Shown one piece after another: positions 14,452 through 17,435 of a stretch of 64,000 nucleotides of DNA. Location: positions 1,951,693 through 2,015,692 of the forward strand of contig NZ_CP008852.1 of NCBI RefSeq assembly GCF_000725345.1, written 5' to 3'. The notes under the pieces were generated by a model. That model did no database searches. It worked only from the letters and a program-made list of their open reading frames with translations, and was not told the DNA's origin. Positions within the stretch are counted from its first letter, which is position 1. The number at the start of each line of letters is the position of its first letter. A program made the position numbers and the translations under genes. The DNA comes from Pelosinus sp. UFO1. GTDB lineage: Bacteria > Bacillota > Negativicutes > DSM-13327.

Positions 14452-15621
14452 CTAAATGGATTCAAATAATTCTTTAACCGTATTCAATTCTTGACGAATT
14501 AAGATGCCTTGTGGACAATGACTTTCACATTTGCCACAGTCTACGCATTTGGATGCATGGGCTGCAGCGCCTACACGGAAATTATATAAATGCTTAAACC
14601 GATCTTTTAACTCTGGTGTACCGCCCGAGATCAAATAGTCATTGAGAATTGTAAAACAACCTGGAATGTTTACGCCTGCAGGACAAGGCATACAGTAGGC
14701 ACAGGCTGTACAGTTGACTTTTATTCGTTTTTTGAAAAGAGTTTTTACTTGATTAATAATGCCTATTTCCTTTTCTGTTAAAGAATTTGCCTGGGCATCT
14801 TGGGTAATTTTTATGTTTTCAGTAACATGATCCATAGTTGTCATCCCACTTAAGGCAACAGAAACTTCTGGATGATTCCAGACCCAACGCAAAGCCCATT
14901 CCGCTGGAGTTCGCTTATTATCTGCCTGATTGAAAAAGGTAAGAGCATCTTCAGGGAGATTTTCAGCAATCTTCCCCCCACGAAGTGGTTCCATAATGGC
15001 AATACCTAGTCCCTTTTTTGCTGCATATTCTAGGCCTTCTTTGCCAGCTTGATAGGTTTCATCCAAATAATTATATTGAATTTGGCAGAAGGACCAATCA
15101 TAATAGTCTACGATTTCTTTAAACAGGCCAATTCTCTCGTGGAAGGAAAATCCTGCATGTTTAATTCTACCATCCTTGATGGCTTGGTCTAGAAAATCAC
15201 AAATTCCAGCTTCCTTTAATATAGGCCATGTAGTAGCATTCAGTGTGTGCACTAAATAAAAATCAATGGTATCTGTCTGAAGCCTTTCTAATTGCTCATT
15301 TAAGTATCTGTCCATATCTGTTCTTGTTTTTATTAACCAGCTGGGGAGTTTAGTAGCTAACTTCACACGCTCTCGATAGCCATCCTTTAGTGCTTTTGCA
15401 ACAAAGGGTTCACTTTCTCCGCCATGTTCCATGCCTTTGCCATGATAAGGATAGGCAGTATCGATATAGTTTACGCCTTCATCTATCGCATGACGAATCA
15501 TCTTGATTGCCTTGTTCTCATCAATATGAGTCGTATCACCATCAATAATAGGAAGTCTCATACAGCCAAATCCTAAAACGGAAACCATTTCATTTGTCTT
15601 GCCATACTTTCGATATAACAA
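14452..15621 (-). CDS. Aldo/keto reductase with C-terminal ferredoxin domain
   Basis: A 389-residue oxidoreductase. The N-terminal TIM barrel has the catalytic Asp-Tyr pair in YIDTAYPYH, the Lys in LATKLPSW and the His in LVHTLN. The C-terminal 80 residues carry two 4Fe-4S-type clusters (CTACAYCMPC and CVDCGKCESHCP). Such fusions occur in anaerobes and are thought to couple carbonyl reduction to ferredoxin-type electron carriers. I place the start at TTG 15621: AGGGGTGATTAAT precedes it and the barrel begins at once (LYRKYGKTN). The frame is open another 50 codons upstream, but that extension is hydrophobic nonsense. Substrate unknown. Confidence 0.87.
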   Translation of the reverse strand: MLYRKYGKTNEMVSVLGFGCMRLPIIDGDTTHIDENKAIKMIRHAIDEGVNYIDTAYPYHGKGMEHGGESEPFVAKALKDGYRERVKLATKLPSWLIKTRTDMDRYLNEQLERLQTDTIDFYLVHTLNATTWPILKEAGICDFLDQAIKDGRIKHAGFSFHERIGLFKEIVDYYDWSFCQIQYNYLDETYQAGKEGLEYAAKKGLGIAIMEPLRGGKIAENLPEDALTFFNQADNKRTPAEWALRWVWNHPEVSVALSGMTTMDHVTENIKITQDAQANSLTEKEIGIINQVKTLFKKRIKVNCTACAYCMPCPAGVNIPGCFTILNDYLISGGTPELKDRFKHLYNFRVGAAAHASKCVDCGKCESHCPQGILIRQELNTVKELFESI

Positions 15622-15789
15622 ATTAATCACCCCTACCTGTAATAATGTTAAATGTAATATAGATAAAAATGGAAACAATATACTTAGTATATCGCGAAGT
15701 AGATGAATTGTCTCTAAAGATAAAAAGAATTTATACAAGAAATATAATGGTAGTAATCCTGCAGTTCTCATAGGGATAACATAAACTAG

Positions 15790-15818: not shown

Positions 15819-15905
15819 TTACTTAAGAAAAAGTACCAGGTATCGATTTTCTCTTTCACGCCATACTATATAGCGTAAAGCATTCGTTAAAAGGAATTCT
15901 TGCCT

Positions 15906-16061
15906 GCGATATTCGTTATCTTTTATATGTCCAACCTACTGTTAACATTAGGGAATCTAATGTTATGTGGATGTCGGGCCACCTTTGAGTGGATGGCAAA
16001 AGCATACTAGGATGCCCACCTGCGAGTCGCAGGTTTGGACATATAAAAGAAACGATATTGC
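15906..16061 (+). ncRNA. Structured non-coding element: long terminal stem enclosing four hairpins
   Basis: A 14-bp perfect inverted repeat (15920-15933 with 16036-16049, CTTTTATATGTCCA) extends outward with bulges to about 25 pairs (from 15906 to 16061). Inside are AACATTA/TAATGTT (15944-15964), CCAC/GTGG (15979-15992), GCAT/ATGC (16002-16015) and the 17-base palindrome ACCTGCGAGTCGCAGGT (16018-16034). It has no frame I can support. A terminator follows at 16084 and a candidate promoter precedes it, so an RNA of about 290 bases on the plus strand is plausible. A MITE-like or palindromic DNA repeat is the main alternative. I do not recognise it as a known riboswitch or 6S RNA. Confidence 0.45.
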
Positions 16062-16083
16062 GGGCTATATTCTGCCAATAAGA

Positions 16084-16118
16084 AAAAAGATTTACCTATG
16101 GGTAAGTCTTTTTTTATA
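16084..16118 (+). terminator. Rho-independent terminator after the hairpin element
   Basis: AAAAAGATTTACC pairs with GGTAAGTCTTTTT (one mismatch) around TATG and continues into TTTT ATATTT. It would end a plus-strand transcript of the structured element. Confidence 0.65.
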
Positions 16119-16126
16119 TTTATAAA

Positions 16127-16158
16127 TGCGAACCCCACTCAAATGAGTGGGGTTCGCA
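16127..16158. repeat. Perfect 14-bp hairpin
   Basis: TGCGAACCCCACTC (16127-16140) and GAGTGGGGTTCGCA (16145-16158) pair perfectly around AAAT. No strong T-run on either side. It stands between the hairpin element and the LacI gene leader and may be a second terminator or a transcript boundary. Confidence 0.5.
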
Positions 16159-16248: not shown

Positions 16249-16421
16249 AACTAAAGGCATATTCTCAAGCATAGGGAAAAGATGGAAGTCGCTGTACAGA
16301 TGGTGATAGTCGAAGCTCATCAGCTATTTTAATCTTAACAAAGAAGATAAAATTTTTAATTAAAGAATGGTATGGATAAATACTCTATATGCGTACTATT
16401 CATAGCCAACAGAGGAGTAAA

Positions 16422-17435
16422 ATGAAGAAAAAAAATATTACTGATATAGCAAATAGAGTAGGCGTATCGCCAGCGACTGTATCGAATGCACTTAATAATC
16501 GGAAGGGTGTTAGTGAAGAAACAAAGCTAAAAATTGTTAGAGCCGCCAAAGAACTAGAATATTACAAGGAATCGGGTAAGAGGCAAAAAACTATTCGCTT
16601 TGTTATTTATAAAAAACATGGTCTGATTGTATCTGATACTCCATTCTTTTCATCATTAATTGAGGGAATTGCAAATGAGTGTAGGAACCAGGGATACGAA
16701 TTATTGATTTCCCATGTATATCATAGTGAGTGTGAAGAAATTATTCATACGGTTGCCGCTGAGTATTCTCAAGGCCTAATTATTTTAGCTACTGAAATGT
16801 GTCTAGCAGATTTAGCTCCTTTTTACGATTTTGATATACCCATCGTCCTATTAGATAGTTATTTTAAAGAAGAAAATTTTGATTGTGTACTGATTAACAA
16901 TAGGGATGCTTCCTATCGAGCTACAAAATATTTGGTGCAAATGGGACATACCCAATTTGGGTATCTTCATAGTACGTTACCTATTAATAATTTTTACTAT
17001 CGAAAGGCTGGATTTAAAGATGCGTTACAAGAGTTTAAAATCCAAAGTAATGCAGAATTTGAACTTTTCTTGGAACCAACTATGGAAGGGTCTTATAGAG
17101 ATATGAAGGCTTTGTTAGAAAAAGGTGATATTGAATTACCCACAGCTTTTGTTGCTGATAATGATATCATTGCTTTTGGTGCAATGCGAGCTTTAAAGGA
17201 GAGAGAGATTCGAATTCCAGAAGATGTATCCATAGTGGGTTTTGATGATATGCCATTTTGTGAAATTACCAGTCCCCGGTTGACGACTAGTAAAGTTTTT
17301 AAGCAAGATATTGGCAGTACTGCAGTTAAAAGACTACTTCAAAATATAGAAGGCAATAAAGAGAGGGTTACGCAAAGAATCGAGGTGAATACGGAACTGA
17401 TCATTAGAGATAGTGTTTTACAATTAAGATCTTAA
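16422..17435 (+). CDS. LacI-family transcriptional regulator of the sugar operon
   Basis: A 337-residue regulator. The N-terminal HTH reads ITDIANRVGVSPATVSNAL, followed by the hinge and a periplasmic-binding-protein-like effector domain (about 60-330; VGFDDMPFCEITSPRLTT is the usual late motif). I choose ATG 16422, five bases after AGAGGAG; the earlier ATG at 16389 lacks a ribosome site and adds 11 residues before the HTH. It is the first gene of a plus-strand run up to 27142 with short gaps, so it probably represses its own operon and is released by the sugar or its phosphate. The effector is not identifiable from sequence. Confidence 0.9.
   Translation: MKKKNITDIANRVGVSPATVSNALNNRKGVSEETKLKIVRAAKELEYYKESGKRQKTIRFVIYKKHGLIVSDTPFFSSLIEGIANECRNQGYELLISHVYHSECEEIIHTVAAEYSQGLIILATEMCLADLAPFYDFDIPIVLLDSYFKEENFDCVLINNRDASYRATKYLVQMGHTQFGYLHSTLPINNFYYRKAGFKDALQEFKIQSNAEFELFLEPTMEGSYRDMKALLEKGDIELPTAFVADNDIIAFGAMRALKEREIRIPEDVSIVGFDDMPFCEITSPRLTTSKVFKQDIGSTAVKRLLQNIEGNKERVTQRIEVNTELIIRDSVLQLRS

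Follow-up and report, generated by a model that had tools for sequence, protein, structure and literature searches.

6S RNA and its gene copies

By imitating an open promoter, 6S RNA (SsrS) captures the housekeeping RNA polymerase holoenzyme once growth has stopped. The polymerase then transcribes a short product RNA from the 6S RNA itself, and this frees the 6S RNA. A 6S RNA gene by itself is expected biology, and why some bacteria keep several is an open question. Two 6S copies are reported for several Firmicutes (PMC8414754), and the Bacillus cereus group carries tandem 6S genes, with a sporulation role reported for 6S-1 (PMC7726162). Free B. subtilis 6S-1 RNA is reported to have a hairpin in the 3′ bubble already (PMC8876501). 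A literature search that left aside two 6S surveys found nothing on 6S RNA copies in Negativicutes or on 6S RNA in Sporomusa, and earlier reports of multi-copy 6S RNA in Negativicutes may exist.

Here, an extra copy that bears on this question is described from the genome of Pelosinus sp. UFO1 (G000; 5,115,410 bases in a single contig). It lies in a stretch of 64,000 nucleotides, hereafter the window (G000:C1:1951693–2015692), and positions below refer to the window unless a contig is named. The gene is very probably a third type-IIa copy, apparently a duplicated tandem 6S gene that now stands behind a promoter of the kind belonging to another structured RNA.

Identification and fold

In an Rfam scan of the whole window, one match alone reached the cut-off of its family. 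Positions 15898–16070 on the forward strand match RF00013 (6S RNA/SsrS) from model position 1 to 187, with 78.9 bits (cut-off 46.4) and an E-value of 6.7e-14. At E-values up to 1, other families contributed 15 further rows, all below their own cut-offs, many of which fall on a separate stem at 16127–16158. From its sequence, we identify the hairpin element as a 6S RNA (SsrS) gene of type IIa.

The minimum-energy fold of 15898–16075 reaches −76.1 kcal/mol, compared with a mean of −43.3 kcal/mol for shuffled sequences (s.d. 3.5, n = 200; z −9.3), none of which was as low. It contains four internal hairpins, one of them a 17-base palindrome at 16018–16034. An earlier note on this DNA had described these hairpins, together with a 14-bp perfect terminal inverted repeat and a longer imperfect extension. 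The repeat is in fact a perfect 16-bp pairing of 15919–15934 with 16035–16050, and the predicted fold carries the closing arm outward to 15902/16065.

The same note had proposed a covariance analysis. This was carried out on 42 type II sequences, namely the 45 type II rows of the 6S tree described below minus three identical ones. The RNAalifold consensus has the 6S plan of a closing arm, an open 5′ bubble, a 3′-bubble hairpin and an apical arm. The closing arm (15902–16065) pairs 15902–15917 with 16051–16065 and 15919–15934 with 16035–16050 in helices 1–4, which have 85.6–99.2% of cells paired. The 5′ side of the central bubble (15935–15950) is unpaired in the consensus, and we infer by analogy that a product RNA would begin opposite C15939. 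The apical arm (15951–16017; helices 5–8) starts in its open form with GGG at 15951–15953 paired with CCC at 16015–16017. The 17-base palindrome is the 3′-bubble hairpin (helix 9, 98.8% of cells paired), which is common among 6S sequences of this type. Overall, 95.4% of cells are paired on the 6S plan, compared with 36.6–46.9% in slid controls. No shuffle out of 500 was as good on four of five measures, and four of 500 were as good on the fifth, pair types. The structure had itself been taken from this alignment, so that the weight is carried by the two-sided changes, which occur in 27 of the 48 pairs and were reached by none of the 500 shuffles.

A predicted intrinsic terminator follows at 16082–16115 on the forward strand, where one terminator-like stem was found against 0.3 expected from shuffles (s.d. 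0.7), in agreement with a terminator noted earlier at 16084. The perfect stem at about 16127–16158, which the earlier note had included, does exist; it lacks a clear U-run and lies between the 6S terminator and a LacI-type regulator gene. Even with three mismatches allowed, the genome contains its pattern at a single place, and the stem is absent beside the orthologous 6S gene of genome G006; it is therefore not counted as part of the element. The 5′ neighbour is an aldo/keto reductase gene on the opposite strand (14452–15771). On the 3′ side are the LacI-type regulator (16389–17435), a protein without a Pfam match and transketolase halves. Three upstream genes are shared with the G006 locus, whereas the downstream genes are not.

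6S RNA genes in Pelosinus and other Negativicutes

The Pelosinus genome has four 6S genes above the cut-off. Besides the window copy (78.9 bits), these are a tandem pair (t1 and t2) at contig positions 2042624 and 2042990 (70.6 and 67.0 bits), about 75 kb from the window copy and the nearest to it in sequence, and a further gene at 1512327 (61.4 bits). In a tree built on all 76 matches, which come from 40 genomes and include one below the cut-off (on G009:C102), type I (31 rows) separates from type II (45 rows) with support of 100/99. All four genes of the genome fall into type II, and the window copy forms a clade of two with G006:C6:329708 (100/93). The match below the cut-off (G009:C102:74222–74374; 40.1 bits) is a 6S-like sequence with a gap in its apical arm, and is perhaps a decaying 6S copy.

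Among 250 Negativicutes genomes that were at least 90% complete, six had no 6S match, 207 had one, 18 had two, 16 had three and three had four; stricter filters drop one of the four copies of G006. A match above the cut-off was present in 225 of the 250. The type-IIa 6S pattern had no matches among viral contigs.

In relatives, the type I 6S gene adjoins an aspS-like gene (family F0). This aspS-linked copy is found in five of eight Pelosinus genomes, and is absent from the genome studied here, from G006 and from the incomplete G005. The aspS gene itself is present in our genome, and the genes that follow look, by eye, like their counterparts in the relatives; a search of the gene with 1.5 kb on each side gave no 6S match at E-values up to 1. 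At this locus (G000:C1:2107149–2111897), a hairpin of two short arms stands in place of the type I 6S gene.

The promoter-like module and the candidate RNA that shares it

Ahead of the 6S gene, on the same strand, lies a promoter-like module (15833–15897). It consists of a −35-like box, CCAGGTAT, at 15836–15843, found by pattern match, and a −10-like box, CATACTAT, at 15862–15869. A start about 7 nt past the −10 box, placed from the position of that box only, would give the primary transcript a predicted 5′ leader at 15876–15897. The earlier note had proposed a promoter here, and a promoter-like module is indeed present, but it is not of the sigma-70 type: a sigma-70 consensus scan found no site ahead of the 6S gene (the three sites that it returned equal the shuffled mean of 3.0).

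The arrangement CCAGGTATC-17-CATACTAT recurs in front of copies of a different RNA element, about 400 nt long. With up to three mismatches, a 20-base part of the module occurs at 10 places in the genome (3 for the reversed control), and six of the nine other places start the ~400-nt element. The pattern CCANGYATN{15,19}NCATACTAT has six genomic matches, the window 6S gene and five element copies, compared with none for the reversed control. A promoter matrix was trained on 39 element promoters from outside the two genomes (48 copies, less eight from G000 and G006 and one near-duplicate). It scores both the window 6S gene and its G006 ortholog at 25.9 and the other three 6S genes of the genome at 0.8, 4.7 and 6.5. 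None of 1218 mechanically called 5′ flanks reaches 25.9, and their 99.9th percentile is 17.0.

The ~400-nt element, a candidate structured RNA, has 140 predicted pairs arranged around a closed multi-arm junction, and the fold of one copy has an energy of −185.2 kcal/mol (z −16.0). In the set of 47 of the 48 copies, which omits one truncated at the end of a contig, 99.0% of cells are paired and 76 of the 140 pairs show two-sided changes; on all five measures, none of 500 shuffles was as high. Its promoter is conserved, as judged by the matrix, and its terminators were recognized by eye. Single-base length differences between copies, together with the covariation of the stems, speak against a coding function. 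Matches were found in 41 of 150 sampled Negativicutes genomes and in 23 of 70 genera, some of them fragments only (G020, G065), and the element was absent from the two sampled genomes of the sister genus. Seven of the 17 matches in our genome are near-complete, including G000:C1:3423833–3424242 (L120:1541–1950). Among viral contigs, one matches a 19-base pattern of the element and 17 match a 17-base pattern.

The copy folded above gave no Rfam match at E-values up to 0.1 and six copies gave none at the cut-offs; the novelty of this RNA is claimed relative to Rfam only. The window promoter leads to a large and strongly covarying RNA, without an Rfam match for the copy tested, that deserves a study of its own. 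In a separate region (L150; G000:C1:2452000–2468000), partial copies of its 3′ part, at positions 2926, 6058, 7617, 8717, 10095, 11437 and 12922 of that region, sit between short genes that resemble a contact-toxin and immunity array. These partial copies are perhaps recombination sites.

Origin of the window copy

A 481-base query around the window gene matches the t1 locus over 15900–16117, terminator included, with 83% identity, and t2 over 15901–16070 with 87%. Similarity to both therefore sets in at the RNA's 5′ terminus, and the copying of the 6S block probably did not include the promoter. Overall identity (84% to t1, 85% to t2) singles out no parent, and neither does the tree; the match of the terminator, which is related to that of t1, points to t1. 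A tandem 6S copy was probably duplicated together with its terminator, and the duplicate would then have landed downstream of a promoter like those found ahead of copies of the large structured RNA. With this different promoter, the duplicate would be made under other conditions than its sibling copies.

Conditions of expression

The consensus of the forespore factor sigma-G is GNATR, a spacer of 17–18 nt and CATNNTA. The window boxes, GTATC and CATACTA at a spacing of 17 nt, resemble it both in sequence and in spacing. A single CATACTA in one paper belongs to a promoter listed there under another sigma factor, SigH (PMC7438776).

In a 1.66 Mb sample of the genome, two SASP genes (Pfam PF00269) have matrix scores of 7.7 and 9.6, within the upper 9% and 4% of the 1218 flanks, and motif searches of the same sample for gpr, gerA and other spore genes found none. 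Scans with a loose sigma-G pattern gave 88 and 35 raw matches, compared with 53 and 26 for the reversed controls. The gene-associated sites numbered 7 and 7 against 8 and 2, which is no clear enrichment, and a forespore regulon defined by pattern alone is not supported. Ten top-scoring background genes include two coding for CBO0543-family proteins and others for a DUF3231 protein, an HSP20 protein and a GH18 enzyme; the remainder code for a TonB receptor, a purine-type permease, a VTT-domain protein and two proteins without a family. CBO0543-family, DUF3231, HSP20 and GH18 proteins are associated with spore formers.

We lean slightly towards a working extra 6S RNA whose promoter serves a vegetative or stationary-phase holoenzyme rather than a forespore sigma factor, and which adds to the dose of 6S RNA or gives another growth-phase response. 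The gene-level sigma-G counts, the ranks of the SASP genes and the presence of the TonB receptor, permease and VTT-domain genes among the best-scoring background genes are all consistent with this. Extra 6S copies with differing growth-phase expression are also described for B. subtilis and Legionella (PMC4211561). The resemblance of both boxes and their spacing to the sigma-G consensus argues against such a promoter, as does the general link of four protein families in the same top list to spore formers.

Reading of the window promoter in the forespore is possible from its sequence, and we hold it to be a minority prospect. The 6S copy might then be made during forespore development and could hold the polymerase silent until germination. 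A fuller version, a compartment-specific 6S RNA, can be proposed only tentatively. The duplicate would have captured a forespore promoter and evolved a 5′-bubble hairpin that must open before product-RNA synthesis. In the spore it would keep the housekeeping polymerase silent, under shared regulation with the multi-arm structured RNA of Negativicutes. A duplicate with a changed promoter and perhaps a changed bubble, in a genome whose aspS-linked copy is missing, raises the question of whether different 6S copies work at different times or in different types of cell.

The predicted hairpin in the 5′ bubble

Among the 42 sequences, a long hairpin closing the 5′ bubble is predicted in the window copy (15936–15970) and its G006 ortholog only. 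The expected number of pairs is 12.2 for the window copy and 10.8 for the ortholog, compared with 3.5 for the next sequence and at most 0.7 for all others. The 5′ bubble is open in the 42-sequence consensus and closed in the window copy's own best single-sequence fold. The predicted hairpin forms at the expense of the GGG/CCC pairing with which the apical arm begins, and the presumed start of the product RNA would be covered by it. A closed 5′ bubble, with the GGG and CCC segments likewise closed, would hinder promoter mimicry unless opened; GGG/CCC pairs are improbable in several of the other 6S sequences as well.

Four substitutions relative to the Pelosinus consensus create the hairpin. Among 3500 random sets of four substitutions, 14 reach 10.8 expected pairs and five reach 12, in a test that was chosen after the data had been seen. 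For B. subtilis 6S-1, a weak 5′-bubble hairpin was predicted and was not confirmed by probing (PMC8876501), which advises caution for the prediction in the window copy too.

The hairpin might instead be a sign of lost function in a decaying 6S copy, as its restriction to the window copy and its ortholog would allow. We consider decay improbable. Between the two genomes, 63 of 65 columns are identical in the promoter module and 168 of 173 in the RNA, which is 97% for each, compared with 52 of 65 (80%) just upstream and 36 of 56 (64%) downstream; this suggests selection on both the module and the RNA. In G006 the terminator stem persists through paired changes, as judged by eye. The open fold costs only 3.8 kcal/mol in the window copy and 1.9 kcal/mol in the ortholog, so that the window 6S RNA may switch easily, and six of the 40 other sequences cost more than 1.9 kcal/mol. 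With the open form this close, a closed bubble is no proof of a dead 6S RNA.

Unlikely readings: a new RNA class or a mobile repeat

The earlier note's first idea, a small RNA of a new kind that does not belong to the 6S family, had been suggested by the multi-branch minimum-energy fold of the element, which was thought not to fit 6S RNA. Local hairpins in the central bubble and apical arm produce this multi-branch centre and led away from the correct family. The full-length RF00013 match above the cut-off and the covariation on the 6S structure overturn that view and make a new class very unlikely, while the promoter-like module on the 5′ side and the terminator-like stem on the 3′ side do give the locus the look of a small-RNA gene.

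Least likely of all is the MITE-like palindromic repeat also proposed there on account of the long inverted repeat between genes, since that repeat is the 6S closing arm and the suggested search for copies in the same genome returned, besides the query itself, two strong matches, both 6S genes and far from a MITE copy number, the rest of the 39 matches listed being short or weak and one of them the shared promoter module.

Comparison with known systems

The window gene shares with the 6S/SsrS family (RF00013) a full-length model match, a closing arm, a bubble, a 3′-bubble hairpin, an apical arm and a predicted terminator. It differs in the long hairpin predicted to close its 5′ bubble and in a promoter module that is common to another RNA element. 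As in B. subtilis, with its 6S-1 and 6S-2 RNAs, there is more than one 6S gene per genome and a hairpin in the 3′ bubble; in contrast, the Pelosinus genome has four copies, all type II in the tree, and the 5′-bubble hairpin, predicted to be weak in B. subtilis 6S-1, is long and strongly predicted in the window copy. The Bacillus cereus group, like the Pelosinus genome, has two 6S genes in tandem, whereas the window copy, a third type-II relative, lies apart from the pair and has a promoter type of its own.
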